36,853 nt of DNA from Romeriopsis navalis LEGE 11480 (GTDB lineage Bacteria > Cyanobacteriota > Cyanobacteriia > Leptolyngbyales > Leptolyngbyaceae), in NCBI RefSeq assembly GCF_015207035.1, contig NZ_JADEXQ010000063.1:1-36853 (forward strand), written 5' to 3'. A program made the position numbers and the translations under genes. Every line of letters starts with the position of its first letter. Within the stretch, counting starts at the first letter, position 1. The notes under the pieces were generated by a model. The model was not told where the DNA came from. It searched no databases and saw only the letters and a list, made by a program, of their open reading frames with translations. Shown piece after piece: positions 3,868-36,853 of the stretch.

Positions 3868-6800
3868 TTAGAATCGAGCATTGTATTCAAAGAAAGCTCG
3901 ACTCTCTCCTGAGAAATCAGTTGACCCTCGGAATAAAAAGTTGTCGTTGATTCGATAGCGTAGACCAAATTGAGCTGGTGCACCATTAGTCAGCACTTTC
4001 AGCACTGAACCCGATAACGCTGGTGTAATGTCATAGCCCGCTTCTGCAGCTAAACCTAGTGTGGACGATCGTTGATCTTCACGAGTCGAGATTGTGGGGA
4101 ACAGTCGGAAGTCGCTTAAGCCCAAAGCATTGCCGATCGAGCCTTGAATATTCCTCAGTAGCCCAGAACTCGCTAAGTTAGCCAGCCCTAAAGTAGTACC
4201 ATCACCACCACTTAATGCATCGATGAAACTGCCACCCAGCAAACCGACAATTTCATTCTGACTGCGGCGGGGAGTACTACTTAGCTCCAGATTGTCAAAC
4301 AACTGACTGGCAGCTCCCTCAACCTTTGCCTCAACACGGACGCTTCCTAATGCACCAAAGCTACTGGCCAACCGTGGTGAATCATCAATTTCAGCCGCGA
4401 TCGTTTGTTCTTGGGTAAATAAGGGAGTACGTGTAACCTCCGGCACCAAAGCAATCAAGCGCACATCGATATATGGATCAAGCCCCTTCCCTTGAATGAA
4501 AGCCGCACGGTGGCGATAGCCACGGGCCAAAACAAACTGAGTTGAAAATAGATTGACTTGTCCCGACCGAAGGAAAACTTCTCCGGTTGGCTGTAGCGCA
4601 TTTAGTTTACCGTTGACTGTAAGTGCGCCTTCCGCCACAAAGTTAATGATTGGGGCTTTGACAATCTGGATATTTTGATTGAGGTTGAGGCGCAAGTTTT
4701 GGAATGCCACTCCGCTAGATGTTGGTGATGTCTTACGCTGACCACTAGCATCATTGGCTGCTGCTGTCGTCGTTGCGGGGGAGGCTTTGTCAGTTAACAG
4801 AATTTTGCCATTCGATAAAGCAACCTCACCAGTGAGACTCGGTTCGAATAGATTCCCAGCGACATTTACACAACCTTTGACACCCCCGCGATATAACTCC
4901 TGATAACTGAGTGAAATTTGATTCAGCGCCACGTTAAGCGATTGGTTAAGACCTTGCTCAGCACCTTGGGCCAGACAATCTTGTAAGGCCAACCCGTCTG
5001 GAATCACGACATTCGGCAATACGCCAGATATCGGAATGCGACCCTTGGCGGCAATATTACCCTGATTAAAGGCTCCCTCTAAGCGTTCTACTTGGACCCA
5101 GTTGCGATCGAAGCGAATCTGGCCATTCACACGCTTCAGTGCTTCCGGTAAACCTTGTACAGCAAAACTAGCGTCATTCAATGCCACAACACCATCAGCG
5201 CGAATATCGTCCAGTGCTCCCTCAACTTTGAGCTTAACTTGACCCTTACCACTAATCCATTTGATGGGTAAATCAACTAAGTTCAGCAGCGCTATTCCAT
5301 CATCCTGGACGCGAATTTCGGCTGCAATCTTTTCATTAGCCGGATATACCTGAATTTGGGGGATGGGGAGCGGGATTTCCCCAACAATACTCAAGGACTC
5401 TGAAGCCGCTAAATTTAGACTAGCGGATAAATCCAGACGACCAAGATTGTAGTTAAAGATTCCACCAGCACGGTTAATCGGCTGATTATTAATTGCGCCG
5501 TCCGTAATTGAAACTAAACCCTTTATGGTCGGATTTTCGCGACTGCCGCTGATTGTCGCAGTTGTTGTCAAGTCGCCAGTAATTTGGCCAGCCAATGGAT
5601 AGAACCGCTGAATTTCCGCAATCGGTAATTTATTAATGCTCAACTGACCAGCTGTATTTTTGCCGCCATAGTTCAACTGTAAGTTAACCTGAGCTTCACC
5701 AATTTGGGCGATCGCACGAGTAAGGTTGAGCTGCCGATCGATGTAGCTTGCATCAACGACGATCGATTGAATTTGCAACGCTGAATTATCCGGTGCAACT
5801 AAGGGAGTCGATTGATCCTTAACTTGGGATTGGGAGGTGGGATACGGTCGCCATTCAACATTCCGAGCCTGCAATTTGAACTCATCAATTGATAATCCTT
5901 GTGGCCCAAACTGGAACCGCACATCACTATTAAAGCGACCACGAATATTGGTATATGTTGGTGGAGCTGGCTTAGCTGCAGCAATTTTTTGGATCTGTTG
6001 ATTTAGTTTCTCGAACTGCTCCAACTGCATTTTCAGCGAAATATCCGATTGATTCGGTGCCCCAACCGTTATGCGGCCAATATCGGCGGCCTTGGCGTTC
6101 GCTGTCGGCCCTGGCCCACTGCTAAGCCCACTGCTAAAGCCACTCAACTCAAAAACCTGTAGTGCGGCAAATACATCTTCAATTCGCCCTTGCTCAACTT
6201 TCACGCTCCCGGTCACTTTTGGCTTTGACTTTAAATCCACCGCGCCGGCGATTAAAAAGCGACTATCACCCTTTTGGAGGAGTAAGTCAGAGACGCGTAA
6301 CAGACGATTCGCGTAGACAAAATTTGTGTTGATATTATTCGTGGCGATCGACCCTAGTTGCGGTTGAGCCAGGGTGATATTGCCTCGTGCAACCCCATTG
6401 ACATAACTTCCCTGGGCTTTAACCCGTTTGCTGCGGAATGCCGTCGAGAATTGACCAAATGCCGCTTGATCGATGAATAACTGCGCTTGGGGAATTTCCT
6501 GGCGGGCTAAGTCAACTGTCAAATTGCCCGATAACTGTCCACTAATGGACGATACGGGCAAACCCAAAGAATTCAGTTCAGACAGGGGAACCGCTGCGAC
6601 CTTGAGGTTAAACAAATCTCCTTGGGCCTGACCGAAAATTTTCAGTTGGTCTCGCTGGATGTTAACTGAAATCGGCTGATTTTGGCCATTGAGGTTAAGT
6701 GCTAAACGATCGTTCGCCCCAACTGTCGCCAGCTTCAATCCTTGCCCAGGAGTCAAATTCACTTGACCACGCAATGGTTCAAACTTCAGACTGTTGACAC

Positions 6801-9249
6801 TAAAACCGCGCAAGGCAATGTTCCCTTGAATTTGCGGCTGTGTGATGGCACCGTTTAATCGCCCATCAAAATCAGTTACCCCATTGACTTGCAAGGCTGG
6901 AGGTAGCGCTACGGGCAATTTCGACAACGCGAGATTTTTGGCATTTACCCGTAAATCTAACCCAGTGATTGCCGGATTGCCCTGGACATTCGCAAAGATG
7001 GTGCCACTGGCTGATAGATCGGGTCCTATTGCCGATAGCAGGTTAACCTGACGGCCATCCCAGTTGAACTTTGCGTCAATCGGCTGCGATGCGAGGGAAA
7101 TACCTTGAGAGAGTCGGACTTGCCCATCGAGCCGTGTCTGCGGAATACTGAGGTTCGCGAGATTCCCGCGCAGTTTGAGCTGACCATCGGCTGCTCCACG
7201 CAAATCTTTATTCACTTGAGCCAAGGCAATACTTGCTAGATCCACATCCGCTTGCCAGCGCTGATCGGCAAACCGGGCTAAAGCGTTAATTCTGCCACCA
7301 TAGGTCTGTGCCGCCAAATTAATCGTGCCAACCGTTTGAGCCAATTTGAGCTGATCGAGTCGCCCTTGCAACGCAGCCGTCCCACTCGCCAGACCTGTAA
7401 CTTGTGGGTTGATTTGAGTCAAGTTGAGATTTGCCGCACGGACATTTGCAAACCACTGACGATCGCGCAATGCACCACTTCCCTCAACTCTCCCACCATA
7501 GGTTTGTGCAACAAATTCGATATTGCCCGTTGTTTGGTCAATACTGGGTTGATCAAGACTGCCGCGTAGGTTAGCCGTTCCAGTGGCTACTCCGTCTAAT
7601 TGTGCATTCACTTTCGCCAAGTTAGCATTCACAACGCGGATATTTGCCTGCCACTGACGATCGCGCAGTTGCCCTGTCGCCGTCACTGTTCCACCATAGG
7701 CTTGGGCTGAAAATTGCGAGATATCAATTTGCTTACCGTTCTGCGCAATTATCAGATTGCCCCGTGCGGCATAGTCCGATTCTGGTGCTTGCCAGTTGAC
7801 CCGCGTAATTAGGTTGTCAACTCGGCCATTAACCTTGACCGTTGCATCCACAGGACCAACTTTGACTGGGGGCTGCTGCTGCGTATAAATCTGAGCGATC
7901 GCATCGCCTGGAAGCGCTGCCACATTTAGATCGACTTTAATACTTTGTGGAGCCGTAATATTAATCGCCGCTTGGCCCGTTACCCGTCCACCAACTTGTG
8001 GTGCCAGTGTCAGGTCTGCAAGCGTTAACTGACCCGTTTTCGTATTTAACTGAAACTTGCTAGCGACTTGTCCAAGGGCGACTTTATCTACGATGACCGC
8101 TTGGGTATTACGCACTGTCCCAGACAATATTGGCGCACCGATCGGCCCTTGCATATTCACTTGCGCCGCGACTGCCCCAATCACGGGCACGGGCGATTTA
8201 ACTTCAAAGGTCTTCAGAAACAACGGAATACCAACGTTGGCAATTTTCGCTTTGAGATCGAATCCCACGTTCGGGTCAATCGTCCCATCAGCCACAAACG
8301 GAATCGTGCCAAACTTGGCTTTTACACCCTTCAGATTAATTGCTTGACCCGCAAAATTTATCTTGCCGTTAATCGATTGCAACGGCTGTGGTGTGCCGGG
8401 AGCAATCAGATCAACCTGCTTTAAATTTGCCTCTCCCTGCAAACTTACAGGGCTGTTAGGTGCTAGCGTCATGACAACTTTGCCATCCGCCCGCCCTTTC
8501 TGGATCTCGATGGGCAATTGCGCGAGTCGATCGATATCTGCCACTAACAGATCATCCGCCTCAACTGTAATTTCCGAGTGCATGCCTTGCCCTTGGCGCT
8601 GCTGACTTTCGCCATTTATCTGTAAACTACCGTTTGTTGCAGCATTTGCGCGCAAATCATAGGTGAAACGACGATTTTCATCAAGCAGATTGAGCGCCCC
8701 AAAAACTTGATTTAACTGAATTGACTTACGCGTTTGCTTCGGCTTCGGCTTCGGGGAAAGTTCAATCTTCGCATCCTTTAACTGCACCTGGTTCAACTGC
8801 ACCTCAATTGCAGCTTTCTCCTCGGACTGCCGCAGCTTAGTCGCAATCCAAAGTCCATCAAAATCCTGCTTCAAATAGGCTTCCGGCTGAATTAACGCGA
8901 CATTCAGCGCCAACTGTCGCTGCCATAATAATTTCCACGGATTAAATTGTATCTGTACCGCTTTAACCGTCAAACGATCGGCGTCATCACTGGTTGCTGG
9001 TACAGAGCTTTGGCCAAACTGTAAATGATTAAAGGAAAACTCCTCAAGATCGCCAATCTTAATGGGACGGTTCAGCTCTTTGCTGAGCGACTTCGATACC
9101 AGCGGAGCCAACTCTTGATGAATAAATATCCAGGCCCACCGCGACCCAGCCGCAATACCTGCAACTGCCAATAATGCTAGTACAAATAACGCTTTAATCC
9201 ACCAGGAACGCTGTGAAGGTGGTGGTGTTGATGGTTCAGAAGAGGACAT
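3868..9249 (-). CDS. tamB: TamB/DUF490-like inner-membrane-anchored envelope protein
   Basis: This very large protein (1793 aa) has one N-terminal membrane anchor at about 17-37. A long run of beta-rich AsmA/TamB-like repeats follows, and the C-terminus has the TamB (DUF490) character, ending in an aromatic residue (FEYNARF). In the TamB family such proteins form a hydrophobic groove bridging inner and outer membranes for phospholipid transport or outer-membrane protein assembly with an Omp85 partner. No Omp85 gene is in this window. A block at about residues 500-700 is made of 66-residue repeats, marked by YGG followed by LRDRQW. AGG lies 6 nt before the ATG, supporting the start. It appears monocistronic. 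The family call is firm; transport of lipid is inferred. Confidence 0.88.
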   Translation of the reverse strand: MSSSEPSTPPPSQRSWWIKALFVLALLAVAGIAAGSRWAWIFIHQELAPLVSKSLSKELNRPIKIGDLEEFSFNHLQFGQSSVPATSDDADRLTVKAVQIQFNPWKLLWQRQLALNVALIQPEAYLKQDFDGLWIATKLRQSEEKAAIEVQLNQVQLKDAKIELSPKPKPKQTRKSIQLNQVFGALNLLDENRRFTYDLRANAATNGSLQINGESQQRQGQGMHSEITVEADDLLVADIDRLAQLPIEIQKGRADGKVVMTLAPNSPVSLQGEANLKQVDLIAPGTPQPLQSINGKINFAGQAINLKGVKAKFGTIPFVADGTIDPNVGFDLKAKIANVGIPLFLKTFEVKSPVPVIGAVAAQVNMQGPIGAPILSGTVRNTQAVIVDKVALGQVASKFQLNTKTGQLTLADLTLAPQVGGRVTGQAAINITAPQSIKVDLNVAALPGDAIAQIYTQQQPPVKVGPVDATVKVNGRVDNLITRVNWQAPESDYAARGNLIIAQNGKQIDISQFSAQAYGGTVTATGQLRDRQWQANIRVVNANLAKVNAQLDGVATGTANLRGSLDQPSIDQTTGNIEFVAQTYGGRVEGSGALRDRQWFANVRAANLNLTQINPQVTGLASGTAALQGRLDQLKLAQTVGTINLAAQTYGGRINALARFADQRWQADVDLASIALAQVNKDLRGAADGQLKLRGNLANLSIPQTRLDGQVRLSQGISLASQPIDAKFNWDGRQVNLLSAIGPDLSASGTIFANVQGNPAITGLDLRVNAKNLALSKLPVALPPALQVNGVTDFDGRLNGAITQPQIQGNIALRGFSVNSLKFEPLRGQVNLTPGQGLKLATVGANDRLALNLNGQNQPISVNIQRDQLKIFGQAQGDLFNLKVAAVPLSELNSLGLPVSSISGQLSGNLTVDLARQEIPQAQLFIDQAAFGQFSTAFRSKRVKAQGSYVNGVARGNITLAQPQLGSIATNNINTNFVYANRLLRVSDLLLQKGDSRFLIAGAVDLKSKPKVTGSVKVEQGRIEDVFAALQVFELSGFSSGLSSGPGPTANAKAADIGRITVGAPNQSDISLKMQLEQFEKLNQQIQKIAAAKPAPPTYTNIRGRFNSDVRFQFGPQGLSIDEFKLQARNVEWRPYPTSQSQVKDQSTPLVAPDNSALQIQSIVVDASYIDRQLNLTRAIAQIGEAQVNLQLNYGGKNTAGQLSINKLPIAEIQRFYPLAGQITGDLTTTATISGSRENPTIKGLVSITDGAINNQPINRAGGIFNYNLGRLDLSASLNLAASESLSIVGEIPLPIPQIQVYPANEKIAAEIRVQDDGIALLNLVDLPIKWISGKGQVKLKVEGALDDIRADGVVALNDASFAVQGLPEALKRVNGQIRFDRNWVQVERLEGAFNQGNIAAKGRIPISGVLPNVVIPDGLALQDCLAQGAEQGLNQSLNVALNQISLSYQELYRGGVKGCVNVAGNLFEPSLTGEVALSNGKILLTDKASPATTTAAANDASGQRKTSPTSSGVAFQNLRLNLNQNIQIVKAPIINFVAEGALTVNGKLNALQPTGEVFLRSGQVNLFSTQFVLARGYRHRAAFIQGKGLDPYIDVRLIALVPEVTRTPLFTQEQTIAAEIDDSPRLASSFGALGSVRVEAKVEGAASQLFDNLELSSTPRRSQNEIVGLLGGSFIDALSGGDGTTLGLANLASSGLLRNIQGSIGNALGLSDFRLFPTISTREDQRSSTLGLAAEAGYDITPALSGSVLKVLTNGAPAQFGLRYRINDNFLFRGSTDFSGESRAFFEYNARF
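7150..7750 (-). repeat. Three to four 66-residue tandem repeats inside the TamB-like gene
   Basis: The CCACCATAGG motif, which encodes the YGG core, recurs at about 7691, 7494 and 7297, a period of about 197-198 bp or 66 codons. Each copy reads roughly AQ-x-YGG, about 8 residues, LRDRQW, then NxNLxxIN, GxAxG and LxGxLDQ. A degenerate further unit follows toward 7150. This looks like internal duplication that lengthened the beta groove. Confidence 0.75.
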
Positions 9250-9570
9250 ACAAGACCTATCTCACAGTGTTTGTTGAAGCTCATTGCGTGCATCTTAACG
9301 TGCGTAACGCACACGTGGCTGTTTCTCGCTAACAGATCAAATTCTGTTGAATATGTAATAGAGTATGAATTAAATTCGGGGGAATCAGGCGAAAAATCGA
9401 CTTAGATTAAGCGTTATGGGAAAAAATGCTCTAAAAGCGTAATTAAGTAAAAATTTAGACTGATGACGAAGTCGGTTGCAATGCGGCGGATCAATGAATT
9501 GTGCTGGAATGAATTGTAGTGGTTGGATACCGGCAGTGTTCAAAACCCCTATCGTATTATGCTCCGTAGA
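9250..9570. other. Intergenic region upstream of the TamB-like gene
   Basis: No coding frame is supported here. It must carry the promoter of the TamB-like gene on the minus strand and the 3' end of the receiver gene transcript. A short palindrome, GTGCG-TAA-CGCAC, lies near 9300-9312. I see no clear terminator. Confidence 0.45.
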
Positions 9571-9996
9571 TTACGTTGGGATAACCGATCGAATAGTCAG
9601 CCCTAACGTTTCAGCAAACTGTGCGAAAGTCAAGAACTTGGGCACATACCCCGTGACATCTAGCTGTGTAGCTTCCCAGACTTGTTGGTCGATCGAGTGT
9701 GACATTACAATCACCGGAATATCCCAAGGTCTTTCAAAAAGGCGTAGGTTGCGTAGTAGTGAAATTCCACCGGCATGGGGCAGATCTAGGTCAAGCAAGA
9801 GAATCGATCGTTTGATGTCGGTATTTTCTGAAGCAACTGCTAGTTTCTCAAGGGCTTCCACACCATCCGGCACAACTTGTAGGTTGATATTGAGTTGACT
9901 GCGACGGAGAGCTCGCTGAACGATCATGACTTCCAATGCATCATCTTCGACTAATAGCAGATTGATTCCTTGTGTTTCATCCTGGTGTGCCAGCAT
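9571..9996 (-). CDS. Rcp1-like single-domain response regulator
   Basis: This 141-residue protein is one receiver domain. The acidic pocket is E17-D18-D19 in LLVEDDA, the phosphoacceptor is D69 in LLLDLDLP, the switch Ser is S99 in VIVMSHS, and the conserved Lys is K120. The pattern of insertions and lack of an output domain match the cyanobacterial Rcp1 group, which acts as a phosphotransfer partner of phytochrome-type kinases. GAGGAA lies about 9 nt upstream of the ATG. No kinase gene adjoins it, but the signalling cluster at 13.3-20.5 kb is close. Ser in place of the usual Thr at the switch position is a mild variation. Confidence 0.85.
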   Translation of the reverse strand: MLAHQDETQGINLLLVEDDALEVMIVQRALRRSQLNINLQVVPDGVEALEKLAVASENTDIKRSILLLDLDLPHAGGISLLRNLRLFERPWDIPVIVMSHSIDQQVWEATQLDVTGYVPKFLTFAQFAETLGLTIRSVIPT

Positions 9997-10123
9997 ATGG
10001 CTGATTCCTCAACTTTAAATTTAAAAAGATATCCGTATCTATTTCCGCTAATCCCGAAAACTAAGATTGAGCTTGCTCTGAATACTGAACATTGCCGATA
10101 TAGACTCAGGCCAAAATAGACTG

Positions 10124-10318
10124 CTAAATACAAACAACATTGGTGTTACCAATGGAATTGATACTATCCACATATTGCCAATCAGTCCGTTCATCGTCGC
10201 CCGCTAAAAGAGATAAATCCAGTCCGGAGAATGCGCCACGCAATATACCTTTTGAGCTACAGTCTAATTCGAGCATTCCAGGCCGTGATGTGTCTAAAAT
10301 AGCTGCGATAGTTTTCAT
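10124..10318 (-). CDS. Hypothetical small protein (64 aa)
   Basis: This frame reads MKTIAAILDTSRPGMLELDC at the N-terminus and has a Gly/Leu/Asp-rich middle. I chose the ATG at 10318 rather than the longer frame from 10357 because the shorter product begins like a small folded protein. Neither start has a good ribosome binding site. It lies between the amylase gene and the receiver gene, all on the same strand. A plus-strand frame covers the same bases, so coding strand is not certain. No family recognised. Confidence 0.33.
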   Translation of the reverse strand: MKTIAAILDTSRPGMLELDCSSKGILRGAFSGLDLSLLAGDDERTDWQYVDSINSIGNTNVVCI

Positions 10319-10425
10319 GATTGGCAAAGTCCAGATTGGATTTTGATATTTAGTCAAAGCGATTGCTGAATTCCGGCATTAGCACTGACTTAGAACAGTC
10401 ACAGCAGTGACCAAGGCATCTAAAA

Positions 10426-11904
10426 TCATTGCTGAGGCACCCAGACGGAGACGGAACCCGCCGCGCAAGGAAATTCGGCCCAGCCATGCTCGTTTGTTGT
10501 GACTGAGTCGGTAATATGCTCAGTCAGATCAATATAGGTTTGCGCAGGCTGTGCTGTTTCCATCCACTTTTGTCCCGCATCACCATTACTCAAGACGACA
10601 GCCATACCACCGGGTTTTGCTTCTGTCCCAATCCGCGTCCAACCGATCGTGTTAGCGTGGTCAAAATAGTCGTATTGGTCGCCGTAAGCGTACTCCTGCC
10701 GCACCTTAAGGAAAATATCAATTAGCCGCTGGTGACTATCCATCCATATCTCATACTCTTGACCATCATTACCCTGATCACGATAGTGAGCACCATAATA
10801 ATCAGCATAGAAAATGCATGGATAGCCATCTCGGCGGAGCAAGATTAAGGCGTAGGCTAGTGGCTTAAACCAAGGCTCAACAACTGATTCTAAGGCTTGT
10901 AGCGGCTGTGAATCATGATTTTCTACCAAAGTCACAGCTAATGCAGGTTGCTGCTTGACTAAGCTGTTATCAAAAATTTGGCGCAGGTCATACCCATTCC
11001 CGGCTTTGCTAGCATCAGCAAAGTTGTAATGTAGAGGTGCATCAAATAACATGACATCACCACCGGTCACGTCAATAAAATGATGCAACGCCTCAACGTC
11101 ACCGGACCAATATTCCCCGACGGCAAACAAGCGTTTGCCCGATTGTTTACGGCAATGTTGTAGCCATTGAGGAAAGAAGCCGGCTCGAACATGTTTTACT
11201 GCATCAAACCGAAATCCATCAACATTCGTCGTATCAACATACCATTCCCCCCAGCGATTTAAGCGTGTCTGTACCTCTGGATGCTCAACATCAAGGTCGC
11301 AGCCCATGAGATAGTCAAAAACACCTTTTTCTAAATCAACATTGTTATCAAATTGTTTGCCTTCGAATAGATAAATAGCATCCTTGTCTTGATCATGCTG
11401 ATTGTAGTCAACAGCATCAAAATGCCACCAGTGCCACTCGGCATCGGAATATTTACCATCACGGCCGGGAAACGTATAATGTGTCCAGACCTTAACTGTC
11501 TGCATATCACCGATCGTTTCATGGCGGTTATGGGGATTTAGCGGCACAGCCTGAGCTTCTTCCGCATGGTCGGCACCCATCATATGATTCATGACCACGT
11601 CTGCGTAGACTTCGATACCAGAGGCTTGAACTGCAGCAATCGCATCCAGGTACTCGGCCTTCGTACCATACTTCGTACGCACCGAACCTTTCTGATCAAA
11701 CTCGCCTAGATCGTACATGTCGTAAACGCCATAGCCAACGTCATATCCGCCTCCAAGACCTTTGTAAGCAGGGGGTAACCACAAGGCTGTAATGCCGATT
11801 TCCGCTAGATCATTAGACTTTGATTTGAGATCATTCCAAAGCTTCCCATCTGGTTCCACATACCAGTGGAAGAACTGCATCATGACACCATTAACTTTAG
11901 ACAT
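10426..11904 (-). CDS. amyA: Cytoplasmic alpha-amylase (GH13)
   Basis: This 492-residue protein is a complete GH13 alpha-amylase that hydrolyses internal alpha-1,4 bonds of glycogen or maltodextrin. It begins GVMMQFFHWY, as in bacterial cytoplasmic amylases, and lacks a signal peptide. The four conserved GH13 regions are present: DVVMNH at 102-107, FRFDAVKH with nucleophile D234, VGEYW with acid-base E264, and VENHDSQ with D331. A C-terminal beta domain ends in VSVWVP. Length is normal for the group. It is flanked by small genes of unrelated type, so probably transcribed alone. It likely takes part in glycogen turnover. The enzyme class is firm; the exact product size range is not visible. 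Confidence 0.93.
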   Translation of the reverse strand: MSKVNGVMMQFFHWYVEPDGKLWNDLKSKSNDLAEIGITALWLPPAYKGLGGGYDVGYGVYDMYDLGEFDQKGSVRTKYGTKAEYLDAIAAVQASGIEVYADVVMNHMMGADHAEEAQAVPLNPHNRHETIGDMQTVKVWTHYTFPGRDGKYSDAEWHWWHFDAVDYNQHDQDKDAIYLFEGKQFDNNVDLEKGVFDYLMGCDLDVEHPEVQTRLNRWGEWYVDTTNVDGFRFDAVKHVRAGFFPQWLQHCRKQSGKRLFAVGEYWSGDVEALHHFIDVTGGDVMLFDAPLHYNFADASKAGNGYDLRQIFDNSLVKQQPALAVTLVENHDSQPLQALESVVEPWFKPLAYALILLRRDGYPCIFYADYYGAHYRDQGNDGQEYEIWMDSHQRLIDIFLKVRQEYAYGDQYDYFDHANTIGWTRIGTEAKPGGMAVVLSNGDAGQKWMETAQPAQTYIDLTEHITDSVTTNEHGWAEFPCAAGSVSVWVPQQ

Positions 11905-12007
11905 GCTGGACTCCAGACCTGAGATAATCGATAAAACGAAGGGAGCTAATTGAAATTTTTTACAGAATCAACAATTACTCTGATGTGGTAATTGGTGCTT
12001 GCAACAG

Positions 12008-12184
12008 CTATTGTTGAATGTCATCGAGCTGCTCGATCGTGATAAAACCGTATTGCCACAACAGCATTGGTAAAGGTCCGTGCTGTCTCTGGCTTTGACG
12101 TAGCGCAACCTGAATTTGCTCTGAAGATAGTGCCAGCTCTGTTTTCAGGAACTGAATTAACTGCTGCAAGTTGTGGTATTTCAT
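12008..12184 (-). CDS. DUF2949 family small protein
   Basis: This 58-residue frame runs from an ATG at 12184 to a TAG at 12008. The first helix (LQQLIQFLKTELALS) is followed by IQVALRQ, then the conserved block GPLPMLLWQYGFITIEQLD, which I recognise as the DUF2949 signature of short cyanobacterial proteins. Function of the family is unknown. It lies 80 bp downstream of the NblA-like gene on the same strand and is probably co-transcribed. The ATG has no good Shine-Dalgarno sequence, so translation may depend on the upstream gene. A longer frame in another phase at 12021-12305 overlaps it and looks like a shadow. Confidence 0.78.
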   Translation of the reverse strand: MKYHNLQQLIQFLKTELALSSEQIQVALRQSQRQHGPLPMLLWQYGFITIEQLDDIQQ

Positions 12185-12264
12185 AGAACTTTTGAGAACA
12201 CACGAGAACGAAACTAAAAATTGCGATTGATGAGGGAAGAGATGGATGTGAATGACTTACCAAG

Positions 12265-12462
12265 CTAGGTCGAAGGGGTTGCTTCGCAGTGGGTCGCTGC
12301 TTCAATTAAATGCTGGATGACATTTTCTTTAACCATGAGCTGGCGGGTGAAATTAACTACGGCAGCTTGAAGTTCCTCACGACTGAGATAATCGGTGGAA
12401 ACTTCCAGGGCGCATATATGAAATTCCTGTTCGAGGGATAGTTGAAACTTACGGTTATCCAT
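12265..12462 (-). CDS. NblA-like phycobilisome degradation protein
   Basis: This 65-residue protein resembles NblA, the small helical adaptor that binds phycobiliproteins and delivers them to Clp protease during nutrient stress. The NblA-like features are LSLEQEF near the N-terminus, a first helix, then SREELQ and the second helix with RQLMVKENVIQHLI. I chose the ATG at 12462 because GGAGA sits about 6 nt upstream; the longer frame from 12498 includes that site. The C-terminal tail (AATHCEATPST) is longer than usual. The DUF2949 gene follows. Presence of an NblA suggests the host makes phycobiliproteins. It could be a divergent paralogue rather than the main NblA. Confidence 0.75.
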   Translation of the reverse strand: MDNRKFQLSLEQEFHICALEVSTDYLSREELQAAVVNFTRQLMVKENVIQHLIEAATHCEATPST

Positions 12463-12776
12463 TTGATGTCTCCATAAAATTTGTTTATTCTGCTGCATCC
12501 AGCCCAGCTAAGAACTAACAAAGCATTGACTGAAGATTTGATCCCACTCTAAAACTTCTAGTTGAATTTGCAGTCTGTCTGATTGCGGAAACCCACTGAA
12601 TCAAAAGGAATACCTCGTCACATAGGGTATTTCGGGCTGTATTCCCTGGAGTGAAACTATTCTAGCGATCGTTCCCTAATCGAGAATGGAAAAATCTCGG
12701 GTTTGCACTTTCGGTAGACGGTAGTTCAGTGATCACGGCATAAAGTGGAAATGTTGGAAAAAGAGGAAATCAATTT

Positions 12777-13118
12777 ATGGATAACCGCACAGAAAGAGAT
12801 GGTTACGATCGTCAGATGATTCCCGCTGAGATAGCGGCGCGGATTGAGCGTGAAGGCGAAGATTACAAGCAAATTCCGGATCAGGATAGCGAAGGCATTG
12901 ATACAACAGATGGTGTGACCGTTGACAATGAAGGCTTGCTCAATAACTATGCGATTGAGCCTGAAATGTACTACGAAGAGCCCGGCGATCGTGCGGAAAT
13001 AAAGGCAGCCGAGAAGGCAGAGCGCGAAGCACAGTTGAAAGAGATTAATCAGACAGACGAGTCGGGTCAGTTGACGATGGAGCAAGACCGCCGTGGTCGT
13101 GGTGTCGGCATTATCTAG
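12777..13118 (+). CDS. Hypothetical hydrophilic acidic protein (113 aa)
   Basis: This soluble, highly charged protein is rich in Glu, Asp, Arg and Gln. It has an unstructured-looking N-terminal half (IPDQDSEGIDTTDG) and a helical charged segment at about 72-92 (EIKAAEKAEREAQLKEIN). It has no membrane segment or signal. GAGGAA lies about 9 nt before the ATG, and a strong hairpin follows the stop, so the gene looks like a complete single transcription unit. It reads divergently from the NblA-like gene, with 314 bp between starts. I recognise no named family. The composition is that of a stress-related hydrophilic protein, but that is only compositional. Confidence 0.7.
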   Translation: MDNRTERDGYDRQMIPAEIAARIEREGEDYKQIPDQDSEGIDTTDGVTVDNEGLLNNYAIEPEMYYEEPGDRAEIKAAEKAEREAQLKEINQTDESGQLTMEQDRRGRGVGII

Positions 13119-13161
13119 GCAGCTATCAATATGGGTGAGAAAAAACATCTCTAACGCCCAC

Positions 13162-13189
13162 GGGCCAGGCATATTAATATGTCTGGCCC
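13162..13189 (+). terminator. Hairpin terminator after the 113-aa gene
   Basis: The arms GGGCCAGGCATAT and ATATGTCTGGCCC form a 13-bp stem with one G-T pair and a very short loop. It is followed by ATAGTTTATT, which is moderately T-rich. It lies 43 bp past the stop and also faces the end of the minus-strand receiver-kinase gene. Confidence 0.65.
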
Positions 13190-30866: not shown

Positions 30867-31850
30867 ATGGTACAGGTAGTTATGGCACAGCAGAGTAAGG
30901 TTATTTCTGGCCCCGTCAACACAATGCGTTCTTACTTACAAGACATTGGGCGTGTACCATTGCTCAGTCGTGAGGAAGAGATTGAGTACGGCCGTCAAAT
31001 TCAGACAATGTTGGAATATCGCCAGACGAAGGAGATGCTAGTCGAGCGTCTCAAGCGCGATCCAAGTCTAGAAGAATGGGCTGCAGCATTAGAAATCACA
31101 GTCGATACTCTAGAAGTAGGCCTGGCCAATGGTGATTATGCGAAGCGCAAGATGGTTGAAGCGAACCTTCGCCTAGTGGTAAATATTGCGAAACAGTATC
31201 AGAATCGCAATATTGATTTGCTCGACTTAATTCAAGAAGGCGCGGTCGGCCTTCAGCGCGGAGCTGAGAAGTTTGATCCGAGCCGTGGCTATAAGTTTTC
31301 GACCTACGCTTATTGGTGGATTCGTCAGGCAATTACGCGGGCGATTTCCCAGCATTCTCGCACTATTCGTCTACCGATTCATTTGGTTGAAGTATTGAAT
31401 AAAATCAAGCGTCAACAGCGTGAACTTTCACAGCAGTTGGGCCGCACACCAACGATCGAAGAGGTTGCCACTACATTGGAAATGGAGCCGGAGAAAGTAC
31501 GTCAATGCTTGGATTATGCGCGTCAGCCAATGTCGTTGGAGAAACGCATTGGTGATAATGGCGATACTGAGCTGGGTGACATTCTTGAAGATGAATCAAC
31601 TTCACCGTCAGAGCACGTTGAAAAGATTACGCTATCCCATGATTTACAAAAGGCAATTTCTCAGCTGCCGGATATCATGCGGGAAATTATTATTATGCGC
31701 TTTGGTCTCGATGGGAATGAAGCACTATCGCTATCCGAGTCAGGCCGTCGTTTGGGCATGAGCCGTGAGCGTGTGCGCCAACTCCAGCAAAAAGCCTACA
31801 ACATTATTCGCCAGCGTAATTCTGGTATGCAGCACTATATAGCTAGCTAG
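30867..31850 (+). CDS. Group 2 RNA polymerase sigma-70 factor
   Basis: This 327-residue protein is a group 2 (non-essential, RpoD-like) sigma factor of the cyanobacterial SigB-SigE set. Region 1.2 has MRSYLQDIGRVPLL. Region 2 has NLRLVVNIAKQYQNR, DLIQEGAVGLQRGAEKFDP and YKFSTYAYWWIRQAI (-10 recognition and melting). Region 3 follows, then region 4 with the helix-turn-helix RLGMSRERVRQLQQKA. It lacks the long N-terminal region of a housekeeping sigma. It should redirect RNA polymerase under stress or in light-dark change. The true start may be the first ATG or the second at 30882. I cannot assign the paralogue letter. Confidence 0.93.
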   Translation: MVQVVMAQQSKVISGPVNTMRSYLQDIGRVPLLSREEEIEYGRQIQTMLEYRQTKEMLVERLKRDPSLEEWAAALEITVDTLEVGLANGDYAKRKMVEANLRLVVNIAKQYQNRNIDLLDLIQEGAVGLQRGAEKFDPSRGYKFSTYAYWWIRQAITRAISQHSRTIRLPIHLVEVLNKIKRQQRELSQQLGRTPTIEEVATTLEMEPEKVRQCLDYARQPMSLEKRIGDNGDTELGDILEDESTSPSEHVEKITLSHDLQKAISQLPDIMREIIIMRFGLDGNEALSLSESGRRLGMSRERVRQLQQKAYNIIRQRNSGMQHYIAS

Positions 31851-33042: not shown

Positions 33043-33576
33043 ATGAGCACAGCAACATTAGTTCAGGCATTTAATACAGTGTCAGAGAATCCGGTCGGAT
33101 TTGAAACGTCGACAACTGAGCCAATCTGCGAAGGGATGAATCTAGCTTTAGCTAGCTTTCAGGCACTATATCTGCAGTACCAGAAGCAACATTTTGTAGT
33201 TGAAGGTGCTGAATTCTACTCTGTTCATGAATTTCTCGATGAAAGTTCGGGTAGTGCTAAAGGCTACGTACACGAGCTGGGTGAGCGACTCAATGGATTG
33301 GGGGGTGTACCGGTTGCCAGTTTCCACAAACTGGCTGAGCTTTGCTGCTTCACACCAGAAGAAGACGGCATCTTTGCTTGCCGTGCCATGCTAGAGCATG
33401 ATTTAGCGGCAGAGAAAGAAGTTATCAAACTTCTGCGTCGTCTCGCGTCACAGGCGGAAAGCCTGGGCGATCGAGCAACTCGCTACATGTACGAAAAATT
33501 CTTGCTCGAAACGGAAGATCGGGCTTTTCACGTTGATCATTTCCTCGCTTCTGACACTTTAGTCCAGTCGCGTTAA
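33043..33576 (+). CDS. dpsA: DpsA-type ferritin-like protein
   Basis: This 177-residue protein is a cyanobacterial Dps, a 12-subunit iron-storage and DNA-protecting ferritin. The ferroxidase region is [20 protein letters not shown], with H50, H62 (in VHEF) and E81. The usual Asp of the site is replaced by H77 in YVHELGERL, giving the three-histidine centre known from some cyanobacterial DpsA. A C-terminal helix has [25 protein letters not shown] lies about 9 nt before the ATG and a strong terminator follows. It converges on the antenna genes, fitting iron or oxidative stress. Identification is firm. Confidence 0.93.
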
Positions 33577-33629
33577 TCTCAAGGATATTTGATTTCTAAT
33601 ACACCTCCTGGTGGTTCAATCAAACCGAC

Positions 33630-33660
33630 AAAAAAGCCCTCTATCGTGGAGGGCTTTTTT
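33630..33660. terminator. Rho-independent terminator after dpsA (bidirectional)
   Basis: AAAAAAGCCCTC-TATCGTG-GAGGGCTTTTTT has a 6-bp GC-rich stem extended by A/T pairs and a T run. The A run on the left makes it usable on the minus strand too, where it would end the antenna gene transcript. Confidence 0.9.
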
Positions 33661-33782
33661 GTGGCAAATCTCTTCTAGACTATAACCTCTGATGAGATTA
33701 GTTATCATCTAATCTGCTAAATATCTTTCCGATATTTTCCCACTATGTAGATTTACGGCTTAGCCTCAATAACTTACATAGT

Positions 33783-33841
33783 CGGATACTCAGGATTCAT
33801 ACTGACATTCTAAGTGGTATCCGAATCAGGGACTTATTCGG
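33783..33841 (-). terminator. Overlapping inverted repeats at the end of the Pcb-like gene
   Basis: CGGATAC at 33783-33789 pairs with GTATCCG at 33817-33823, and CCGAAT at 33821-33826 pairs with ATTCGG at 33836-33841 across the stop codon. The two hairpins share bases and are mutually exclusive. They might influence 3' processing; no T run is present. Confidence 0.35.
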
Positions 33842-34898
33842 ATTGCTGCTCCAAGTCAATTGTTTGCGATGGAATCGCAATGGGTTCTGGCTGTAGCCAA
33901 GCAAATGCATCGGCACTCATCGGTGCCTCAGTCCGAGCACGATAGGCATGCCACAAGTGGCCAACTAAGGCCACAACTGCTAATCCAGCTTGAATATTCG
34001 CCGCCATCAATCGATCGCTGCCATAGAATTCTGGTGGAAAAGCAACGGTGTTGTGACTCACAAACAAACATGAAGTGAACGCCATAAAAGCCAATCCACC
34101 AAGGCTATAGGAGAGCAATGCATCTGGGCCAAGTCGTAGAACCTTTTTGGCCCAGCCCAACATCGGCACAATAATATGCCAAATACCGCCGAAGATTAGC
34201 AGTCCCGACAGCCAAATATGTCCACCGATAATATCCTCAAGATTATCAACCGCGGCCATGCCCCAAGGATTCCAACCAGATGCCGTTTGGCCAAACAGAT
34301 AACCAAAAATTCGTAATGGATCAATATTCGCAGCATCAACGATTCGGACAGATTGAAGATTGGCATCATATATTCCGCCCCATTGAGTCGCTCTGAGCAC
34401 AAACGCCAAAGCCCCGAGCCCTAGAAACAGCAAATGATGCCCCAGGATCACGCCAAGTGCGCGCGGATCGTTCCATTCGAAGTGAAATTTTTTGGCTTTT
34501 CCACCGACTATTTCGAGCTTATCGGCTCCCGTCGTTAAGTGAAATAATCCGCCCGCACCCAGTACCGCTGAGGCGGCTAAATGTAAAATGCCGATCGCGA
34601 AAAATCCATCAGTATCAACGATCGTACCACCTTCACCAATCCCAATGCCCAACATCGCCAGATGCGGCAGGACAAGCAATCCTTGCTCCCCTAAAGGCAA
34701 ACTTAAATCCAGCCGGGCAACTTCCATCACAGTTGTTGCACCAGCCCACAACATGATTAAACCTGCATGGGCAATATGGGCGCTCAGCCAAAGACCGGAA
34801 AAGTCAACTAAACGTGCATTGCCGACTAACCAAGATTTCTTTGAACCCGCAGGCACAAACGTCTGGGCCAGTGGATTATTGTTGATCGTTGTCGTCAT
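33834..34898 (-). CDS. CP43-like chlorophyll-binding antenna protein (Pcb/IsiA type)
   Basis: This 354-residue protein has six membrane helices and the CP43-like layout of the Pcb/IsiA family, without the long lumenal loop of CP43. His residues in conserved helices can bind chlorophyll: H41 and H44 (AHIAHAG), H79 (LPHL), H106, H154-H155 (GHHLL), H227 (GGHIW) and H314-H317 (GHLWHAYRAR). It should sit in the thylakoid membrane as a light-harvesting protein. It is the second gene after the IsiA-PsaL fusion, 124 bp downstream, and probably on the same transcript. I cannot tell from sequence which photosystem it serves or which chlorophyll it binds. The ribosome binding site is weak. Confidence 0.88.
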   Translation of the reverse strand: MTTTINNNPLAQTFVPAGSKKSWLVGNARLVDFSGLWLSAHIAHAGLIMLWAGATTVMEVARLDLSLPLGEQGLLVLPHLAMLGIGIGEGGTIVDTDGFFAIGILHLAASAVLGAGGLFHLTTGADKLEIVGGKAKKFHFEWNDPRALGVILGHHLLFLGLGALAFVLRATQWGGIYDANLQSVRIVDAANIDPLRIFGYLFGQTASGWNPWGMAAVDNLEDIIGGHIWLSGLLIFGGIWHIIVPMLGWAKKVLRLGPDALLSYSLGGLAFMAFTSCLFVSHNTVAFPPEFYGSDRLMAANIQAGLAVVALVGHLWHAYRARTEAPMSADAFAWLQPEPIAIPSQTIDLEQQSE

Positions 34899-34973
34899 AA
34901 TTCTTGTATACCGCTAAACGTCAAGCTATTTCAATGAGCACAATCCTATTTGTGGCCTGACCCAACTATATGA

Positions 34974-35022
34974 ATCGGTAAATTGAGCCAAGCCGATCGG
35001 TAAATTGATCTAAGTCGATTTA
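34974..35022. repeat. 13-bp direct repeat and hairpin between the antenna genes
   Basis: ATCGGTAAATTGA occurs at 34974-34986 and again at 34996-35008, 22 bp apart. The second copy also pairs with GTCGATTTAC to its right to form a weak hairpin with one wobble. Possible mRNA processing site in the antenna operon. Confidence 0.45.
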
Positions 35023-36528
35023 CTAGAGCGTGATTGGATGCAGCAGAATATAGGCAAAGAAGGCACTACCCGCGCCACCAATTAAGAAGCCTAAGGCAAA
35101 CTGATGCCAGCCCAATTTCGATCGCATATCTTCGGGCAACCGCATTGTATCCAGGGTCACAGTCGTAACAGTTGGCTCAACCCGGGATGAACTGTAAGCG
35201 GCCGTTCCATAGATTCGTAAAAGGATACTGCCAATCACAACCAAACCCACAGCCGAACCAAGTCCCGCCACACCAGCATTGGGCGTATCACGCATTGGGC
35301 CAAGCTTAAGAAACGGACCAAGCAGCCAGTAGCCGTGAGCCATACCAACTTCTAAACCACGACGCAGTGGACTGAGACCCGATCGGAAGATCGGTAGCTT
35401 GGCAAAAAAGACACGATTATAGTCCAGTGAATTGACTGGTGTCGCTAGCACACCTTCAAATGCTGAATTCTGTAGCGTAACGGGTCTCACACCAGTCTCT
35501 GGCGCAAATCGGAAATTATAGCCAGCCATCACCCCACGCGCTTGGATGGCATGCCAAATATGCCCCAGCAGGAACATCACAGAAAACGCCACATGGAAGG
35601 CACATAACCACCCCCGAGCCGAGACTGTACCATCGGCATAACGCAATGTCTGAAGTGGACCGTAGAACATCTCGGGATAAACGAGACCGTTTTGCCAAAC
35701 AAAATAAGAGGCGATCGCACCCATATAGGCAAGTGCTGCCAGACTATAGGAAAGATAGGCTTCACCGGACCATACCAAGGCTTTCTTGGCCCAACTTAGT
35801 GGCTGACTGGCACAGTGCCACATACCACCCAAAATACACAAACTGCCAACCCAGATATGTCCACCGACAATATCTTCGAGGCTATCAACTGCAGTCATTC
35901 CACCAAGGCCATGTTGACCAACCAAGTAGCCAAAAATTTGCCCTGGACGAATTGAAGGACTTGTAATGACACGGAGATCACCACCGCCAGCTATGGCTGG
36001 GTCAAATAGTCCGCCAAAGAACATCGCCTTTAGCACTAATAACCACGCACCAGCACCCAATAGAATTAGGTGAATTCCAATGATCGTCGTCATCTTATTG
36101 CCATCGTCCCAACGATAGCCAAAGAAACCCGTAAATTTATCGTTCTCGTTTAAAACGGCTGGACCGCGTAATGAGTGAAAGATTCCACCCGCACCAAGCA
36201 CGGCAGAGGAAATTAGGTGTACCACCGCCACATTGAAAATCGTTTCGGGATCGGTGATGACACCCCCGGCACCAACTCCAATTCCGAGGGTTGCTAAATG
36301 CGGCAATAGAATCAGACCCTGTTGCCCCATCGAAATTGTTGGGTCATAACGAAATAACTCAAATAAGGCGATTGCGCCTGCCCAGAACACAATGAGTCCG
36401 GCATGGGCGACATGGGCTCCGAGTAAACGTCCAGAAAGATTTGTCAGTCGAGCATTTCCAGCAATCCAAGTAATCCGTCGATCGACATTTGTAGCGTTCA
36501 ATATCGTATCCGTTGTAATGCTTGTCAT
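35023..36528 (-). CDS. IsiA-PsaL fusion (CP43-like antenna with C-terminal PsaL domain)
   Basis: Residues 1-345 of this 501-residue protein are a six-helix IsiA/Pcb-like antenna with chlorophyll-ligand His at H39, H42, H77, H104, H153, H224 (GGHIW) and H323-H326 (GHIWHA). Residues about 358-501 are a PsaL domain: LATPVNS, then [31 protein letters not shown] and [13 protein letters not shown]. PsaL is the photosystem I subunit at the trimer contact, so the fusion probably docks an antenna to PSI in place of PsaL. This fits the known class of CP43-like proteins with a PsaL extension. TTAGGTAGG upstream gives a usable ribosome binding site. An IS1 end lies 43 bp upstream. Confidence 0.93.
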
Positions 36529-36571
36529 GATGACGCGCCTACCTAATTAAAAATGATGGTGATTATTATTC

Positions 36572-36853
36572 GGTAGTCCTAGTCAGGTAAGGATGCGTTG
36601 TAATGGTGAACGAAGTACCAGATTGCCCCAATGTGATTTTCGAGCTTCTTTGAGAACGAGAGCGTCTTTCGCACAAGCCTCGATACTCGCTGCCTCAGGG
36701 TACAGTTGAATCGCTCAATGTGATTGGTCTGCCCACTTTCTTTGCCGACGGCTCGATGTCGCTTGCTGGGTAACACCGTTTCGTAGGCTTCCCAGAAGTC
36801 GCTGTAGCACACCGCACACTGACGATAGACCGATGGCAAAGATCGCCACAGCG
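36572..36853 (-). mobile_element. IS1-family element, truncated by the window edge
   Basis: GGTAGTCCT at 36572 is the probable terminal end, since IS1-family ends begin GGT. The transposase stop lies 7-9 bp inside it. The rest of the element, its other end and the target duplication are beyond the window. Confidence 0.7.
36579..36853 (-). CDS. IS1-family transposase InsB, C-terminal part
   Basis: This is a partial gene whose 5' end lies beyond the window. The visible part has LWRSLPSVYRQCAVCYSDFW with the catalytic Asp in YSDFWEAY, then VGKESGQTNHIERFNCTLRQ with the catalytic Glu, and the C-terminal YFVHHYNASLPD. It is the InsB end of an IS1-type transposase, which is normally made by frameshifting between InsA and InsB. 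The frame is open to the window edge with no defect visible. The TTG at 36839 is an internal codon, not a start. Confidence 0.9.
   Translation of the reverse strand, partial: LWRSLPSVYRQCAVCYSDFWEAYETVLPSKRHRAVGKESGQTNHIERFNCTLRQRVSRLVRKTLSFSKKLENHIGAIWYFVHHYNASLPD

Follow-up and report, generated by a model that had tools for sequence, protein, structure and literature searches.

The window analysed here is a stretch of 36,853 nucleotides from Romeriopsis navalis LEGE 11480. Near its right end lies a gene in which a chlorophyll antenna is joined in frame to PsaL, followed by a second, stand-alone antenna gene. A preliminary description of this locus had suggested a dedicated PSI antenna unit in which the fusion replaces PsaL and recruits the second protein. 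Which antennas the two genes encode, whether they form a unit of their own and how they might be controlled are considered below.

Organization and identity of the antenna genes

The two reading frames, their coordinates, the in-frame junction between antenna and PsaL, and the distance of 124 bp to the second antenna gene are all as first described (Table 1).

Table 1. Features of the fusion locus and its surroundings (positions in the window)
Feature	Position	Strand	Remarks
dpsA	33043..33576	(+)	iron/stress protein; convergent with isiA5
Terminator-like symmetrical hairpin	33628..33662	(.)	14 pairs; between convergent isiA5 and dpsA; consensus match only
isiA5 (gene 2)	33834..34898	(-)	stand-alone antenna gene, IsiA5 clade, 354 aa
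Fusion-isiA5 spacer	34899..35022	(-)	124 nt
isiA/psaL fusion gene	35023..36528	(-)	501 aa; Anabaena IsiA2 / Leptolyngbya IsiA4 / CBPV type
PsaL domain of fusion	35035..35472	(-)	residues 353-498, three helices
Antenna domain of fusion	35509..36471	(-)	approximately residues 20-340, six helices, without large lumenal loop
Target-site duplication	36564..36571	(.)	8 bp, GAATAATA
IS1-family element, right end	36572..36853	(-)	reads towards fusion; cut by contig end
IS1 transposase, C-terminal part	36582-36851		PF03400, 2.1e-12

The fusion gene encodes one open frame that matches the PSII family at residues 20-293 (1.8e-67 for the whole protein) and, with its PsaL domain, profile positions 6-147 of 150 of the PsaL family (6.6e-49), both from Pfam. 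Residues 21-339 score 369.5 bits with the NCBI antenna subfamily TIGR03041, above the cut-off of 335. The PsaL part aligns through its helices: residues 15-496 of the fusion align nearly end to end with the Anabaena fusion chain 7y3f_1 (PDB 7Y3F; 552 bits), and the PsaL encoded elsewhere in the genome also aligns with this part, except for its C-terminal tail, which is missing from the fusion. The AlphaFold model of the fusion, which is poor (mean pLDDT 49.9; 6 aligned sequences), contains nine long helices, six plus three. A six-helix antenna without the large lumenal loop, carrying PsaL in frame, places the protein in the IsiA-PsaL fusion class. PsaL-extended CP43-like proteins had rightly been described as a known class, which includes the solved Anabaena homologue and the class termed CBPV (PMC3610870).

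The gene isiA5 encodes a protein that matches the PSII family at residues 22-296 (1.5e-44, Pfam) and scores 317.5 bits with TIGR03041, just under the cut-off of 335. Its AlphaFold model, also poor (mean pLDDT 57.8; 4 aligned sequences), has six helices, and its best solved match is chain 9zjt_3 (369.5 bits). The residues M45, T46 and T49 are printed for IsiA2, IsiA3 and IsiA5, respectively, in PMC9938196 and, counted on the alignments, fit 7y3f_1, 9zjt_2 and 9zjt_3, respectively. Chain 9zjt_3 is taken to be Anabaena IsiA5 because its residue 49 is T, as printed for that protein. The original label of gene 2, 'Pcb/IsiA-like', can thus be narrowed, as far as sequence comparison indicates, to the IsiA5 clade.

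Phylogeny of the antenna domains

The main tree comprised 51 rows, including 15 fusions and leaving out Prochlorococcus-type Pcb sequences. No tree included the frames of L014, the fusion of L143, which is broken, or the short pieces in L141 (161 aa) and L145 (126 aa). A reduced tree, from which three long-branched rows were dropped, was built from earlier rows in which L015 and L140 carried foreign upstream letters. In the 51-row tree the PsbC clade separates with support of 100/100. Gene 2 falls into a five-row clade with 9zjt_3, two Calothrix genes and a gene of the nearest relative, L010 (96/86). This clade together with one further row is the sister of the IsiA1 clade (13 rows, 100/99). 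The branch of gene 2 is long (0.67), and support for its clade is fair because long branches meet there; in the reduced tree it stays with 9zjt_3 and the Calothrix genes (100/98).

The fusion groups with the fusions of L010 and G018 (99/95). All 15 fusions and five stand-alone genes form a group of 20 rows (92/97); a clade of fusions only is absent from the best tree, yet it is not rejected (p-AU 0.125). The five stand-alone genes (L015:3771, L011:3823, L012:3605, L139:9053 and L140:2732) join six of the fusions with support of 99/96, which looks like the loss of PsaL from a fusion or its acquisition inside the group. The preliminary description had envisaged a placement against PcbA, PcbC and IsiA clades. 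On the IsiA side, gene 2 stands with the IsiA5 clade and the fusion with known fusions; Pcb was judged by the order of solved matches alone.

Occurrence and gene order in related genomes

A search of 58 genomes, including that of the window, gave an intact match running from the antenna through PsaL in at least nine of the 57 others (G003, G014, G018, G025, G037, G038, G040, G043 and G052), the match in G038 reaching residue 456 only. Since the fusion recurs in other genomes, a product of chance or of assembly is excluded. In G007 the fusion is broken over two pieces with stops; it lies in two reading frames on contig 416 (L143:5586-7129), beside an intact isiA1 and a flavodoxin gene. From the 80 loci of one search, L010-L015 and L024 were examined for fusions, and the rest mostly matched the PsaL part only. 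L024 carries tandem psaL-like frames (5911-6426 and 6703-7233), of which the second resembles PsaL of the fusion more closely (51% vs 40%).

The intact fusion records examined amount to 14 distinct ones: L010 (the same record as G014/L144), L011-L015 and L135-L142. Another antenna frame is present in the stretch in 14 of 14, as a piece only in L014 and L141. Gene order around the fusion varies among these relatives. An IsiA5-clade gene directly follows the fusion in the window, in L010 and in L137, where it is so assigned by its place on a long branch. In L011 and L012 the IsiA5-clade gene comes after isiA1. The gene isiA1 is divergent from the fusion in L010 and follows it in L136. Several relatives have a flavodoxin gene next to the fusion. 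In L010 the fusion and isiA5 are immediately followed (8992-13162) by genes for an iron/B12-type ABC permease, an ABC ATPase (recognized by eye) and a haem/transferrin-type TonB-dependent receptor, which suggests that, in the nearest relative, the pair has an iron-related context.

Separate psaL and isiA genes and the neighbouring genes

The genome assembly (6.47 Mb, 251 contigs, 99.5% complete) contains both genes for which a search had been proposed, a separate psaL (contig C94, 21198-21614) and a stand-alone isiA1 (contig C61, 37344-38300; 343 aa). The five best solved matches of the latter are all IsiA chains (543-570 bits). Antenna family matches in the genome number seven, namely CP47 (C71), CP43 (C86), the fusion (two pieces), gene 2 and the C61 gene (two pieces); an IsiA3-type gene is absent among them. 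Because an ordinary psaL and isiA1 are kept, any replacement of PsaL by the fusion would be conditional.

The gene isiA1 is adjoined by a flavodoxin gene on the opposite strand, and a ferritin-like Dps gene (L120:3287-3829, (+)) lies a few kb away. No Dps match was found near the fusion in the stretches of relatives examined. A small cysteine-bearing protein without a Pfam or NCBIfam match is encoded near isiA1 (L120:4841-5119, (-)). Such a protein is also encoded in the fusion stretch of nine of the 14 intact loci (L010, L011, L012, L013, L014, L135, L137, L139 and L141), and it is possibly an unrecognised companion of iron-stress antenna genes. The window also carries a sigma-70 factor gene (regions 1.2 to 4; 30867-31850, (+)) about 1.2 kb from dpsA and, at the opposite contig end, a second transposase gene (PF01609; 21-1196, (-)).

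A probable IS1-family insertion between isiA1 and the fusion

The right end of the window is the end of its contig (C63, 36853 bases), and the IS1 end found there stops 43 bp before the start codon of the fusion. The end of contig C61 (L120:8458-8671) consists of an IS1 left end that encodes the InsA zinc ribbon (PF03811, 1.6e-10), starts 113 nt past the stop codon of isiA1 and is preceded by GAATAATA, the same 8 bp that flank the right end. The InsA zinc ribbon, the IS1 DDE transposase, the similar ends and a target duplication of 8-9 bp assign the element to the IS1 family.

Several near-identical IS1 copies are present in the genome. Four left and four right IS1 ends were compared in 16 combinations, a copy on C9 (88%) and a match on C18 (71%) being left out. 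The flanks agree at 8/8 positions for C61/C63, 9/9 for C79/C166 and 7/8 for C201/C122; for the IS1 ends on C104 and C94 a partner was not found. C61 and C63 most likely flank one IS1 copy, because their flanks agree at 8/8 positions as against at most 5 in the other 13 combinations. This link is drawn from the IS1 flanks alone, the middle of the element being assembled in neither contig. In the orientation tested, the ends of C61 and C63 do not overlap by 9-300 bases, nor do the final 12 bases of each contig recur in the stretch of the other. Removal of the element would leave isiA1 and the fusion in the same orientation with 148 nt between them. The insertion appears to be young, because the ends of the split element are 99-100% identical to other copies. 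The genes probably stood in the order isiA1, fusion and isiA5, all read in the same direction, until IS1 recently inserted among them.

Control of expression

The FurA consensus of Anabaena (PMC4005646) was used to scan six regions, one of them from L010. A match at 16/19 positions lies about 150 nt before the start of isiA1, and only 2 of 300 resampled sequences were as good. No FurA-box beyond chance was found in the spacer of the empty site, upstream of the fusion as it now stands, between the fusion and isiA5 or before dpsA. Because the sole match beyond chance precedes isiA1, regulation of the pair by iron may have changed. A Fur box of the E. coli type was used as an alternative consensus; before isiA1 it did no better than chance (77/200). 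A 13/19 match of this type that overlaps the IS1 target site was set aside, as 7 or 8 of 200 resampled sequences were as good, six regions had been tried and the Anabaena consensus gave nothing beyond chance there.

Between isiA1 and the target site lies a strong hairpin with a T-rich 3' side (-34.2 kcal/mol, z -4.22, 0/200 shuffles). It was not listed by a simple terminator scan and is compatible with partial termination or mRNA processing. The hairpin in the fusion-isiA5 spacer is no stronger than those of shuffled sequences (z -1.38). It is plausible that a promoter upstream of isiA1 drove the operon and that the IS1 element alters iron control of the distal genes.

Antisense RNA regulation of the antenna genes was also considered. 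The Rfam model of IsrR gives antisense-strand matches in the fusion (125.7 bits), isiA1 (107.4) and gene 2 (72.2). The psbC antisense strand, used as a control, scored higher (155.6 in this genome at L122:4732-4918, and 163-175 in the three relatives L102, L104 and L110), and the candidate was dropped. IsrR matches in such genes show no antisense RNA because the match follows from coding homology.

Proposed function and alternative explanations

The locus is very probably the distal part of an iron-stress isiA operon that would equip a PSI monomer with the fusion in place of PsaL and that was recently split by IS1. The original operon would have read isiA1, 148 nt, isiA/psaL fusion, 124 nt and isiA5 in one direction, driven by a putative Fur-regulated promoter before isiA1. 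By analogy with Anabaena, the PsaL domain of the fusion would enter PSI in place of ordinary PsaL when iron is short, PSI would stay monomeric and the first antenna unit would be placed beside PsaA. The arc would be continued by IsiA1 and IsiA5, which would transfer energy to PSI, and PsaL-bearing PSI would persist alongside the fusion-bearing form. The IS1 element, inserted between isiA1 and the other two genes, may then have changed the expression of the fusion and isiA5.

The direction of such a change is where the first alternatives lie. It is unlikely that the insertion rewired the operon in such a way that the fusion and IsiA5 escaped Fur control and isiA1 kept it. If it did, monomeric PSI-antenna complexes could occur in iron-replete cells, or a complex of the fusion and IsiA5 without IsiA1, and the organism would be a natural experiment separating the two halves of the iron-stress antenna. 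It is distinctly unlikely that the insertion instead cut the fusion and isiA5 off from the iron-regulated promoter, leaving the pair silent or decaying and the cell reliant on isiA1 rings around PsaL-bearing PSI. The short distance from the element to the fusion and the lack of a FurA-box beyond chance beside the pair would fit such silence, as would the broken fusion of G007. Both frames are intact, but this is no proof of use because the insertion looks young. Transcription could nevertheless read through from isiA1 or start at a promoter within IS1, and the long branch of gene 2 does not speak for decay: it is not caused by IS1, because the L010 gene shares it and no IS1 is present in the stretch examined there.

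That the pair serves light colour or intensity instead of iron is very unlikely. This explanation draws on the genes Chro_2988 and Chro_2989 of Chroococcidiopsis thermalis PCC 7203, which drop roughly 80-fold under far-red light (PMC8827656), and is opposed by the flavodoxin genes beside isiA1 and beside the fusion in several relatives and by the FurA-box before isiA1; a light role would not exclude the iron-stress operon. An assignment of the two proteins to Pcb antennas or to paralogues of PSII CP43, instead of the IsiA type, is hardly credible. The psbC model does score 371 bits on the fusion and 274 bits on the gene 2 protein, but both scores are far below its cut-off of 603, both proteins are without the large lumenal loop and stand outside the PsbC clade, which argues against PsbC (CP43), and the genome has its own CP43. 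The Pcb reading is opposed by the order of solved matches only, IsiA chains ranking ahead of chains 7ymi_1 to 7ymi_4 for gene 2.

The preferred explanation, a split iron-stress operon, makes the pair ordinary in kind, a further lineage for a known system and not a new principle. The system is one that changes the oligomeric state of PSI under iron shortage. The analysis adds that gene 2 belongs to the IsiA5 clade, that psaL and isiA1 are retained and that IS1 has probably split the pair from isiA1 recently. This probable split is the new part; a limited literature search, covering parts of the sources, gave no mention of an IS element within an isi operon. The small set of genes (IsiA1, fusion and IsiA5, with no IsiA3-type gene) and its probable interruption by IS1 could help to show which subunits are required in the complex and how these are co-regulated.

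Comparison with known systems

In the PSI-IsiA complex of Anabaena PCC 7120 (PDB 7Y3F), PsaL is absent and the C-terminal domain of IsiA2 lies in its place; the complex is a PSI monomer with six IsiA subunits on the PsaA side, and PsaL, which continues to be produced, is thought to compete (PMC9938196, restated in PMC12808642). Homology to this complex favours the earlier proposal that the fusion replaces PsaL and is joined by IsiA paralogues, which is nevertheless already published and would hold here only conditionally. The idea of a dedicated unit is supported in so far as paralogues join the fusion in the solved homologue (by its chain counts, 9zjt combines the fusion and four IsiA1 chains with a single 9zjt_2 and a single 9zjt_3). 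The pair itself is not the whole unit, as isiA1 probably began the operon and relatives carry other antenna genes next to the fusion. Stoichiometry and pigment had been called not known; for the Anabaena homologue the subunit make-up and the pigments are known, IsiA2 binding 17 chlorophyll a and 5 beta-carotenes (PMC9938196).

As in Anabaena 7120, antenna and PsaL form one chain, further IsiA genes are present in the genome and an ordinary psaL is kept. The R. navalis locus differs in that only IsiA1, fusion and IsiA5-clade genes occur, an IsiA3-type gene not being among the antenna matches of the genome, and in the IS1 element between isiA1 and the fusion. The linker is 10-20 residues longer in places than that of Anabaena IsiA2, and the IsiA2 marker residues W426, F427, N451 and W454 (PMC9938196) correspond to A, Y, A and F at the aligned places.

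The pairing of a fusion with an IsiA paralogue is also in print already. Chro_2988 (fusion) and Chro_2989 (IsiA paralogue), which have neighbouring locus numbers, were proposed as a possible heterodimer acting on PSI (PMC8827656); unlike the present pair, likened to them by description, they were studied in white vs far-red light. The clusters isiA2-isiA3-isiA4 of Trichodesmium and isiA2-isiA3-isiA4-cpcG2-isiA5 of Leptolyngbya JSC-1 have been reported to respond strongly to iron (PMC12090762). Compared with these clusters, the R. navalis locus has fewer antenna genes, and no cpcG was recognised beside the pair among the window frames scanned. The PsbC-PsaL hybrid Nsp37500, which represents the class CBPV, has been suggested to add antenna to PSI monomers (PMC3610870). 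The R. navalis pair resembles the genes of JSC-1, Trichodesmium and Nsp37500, as far as these sources describe them, in that a PsaL-bearing antenna is clustered with isiA paralogues.
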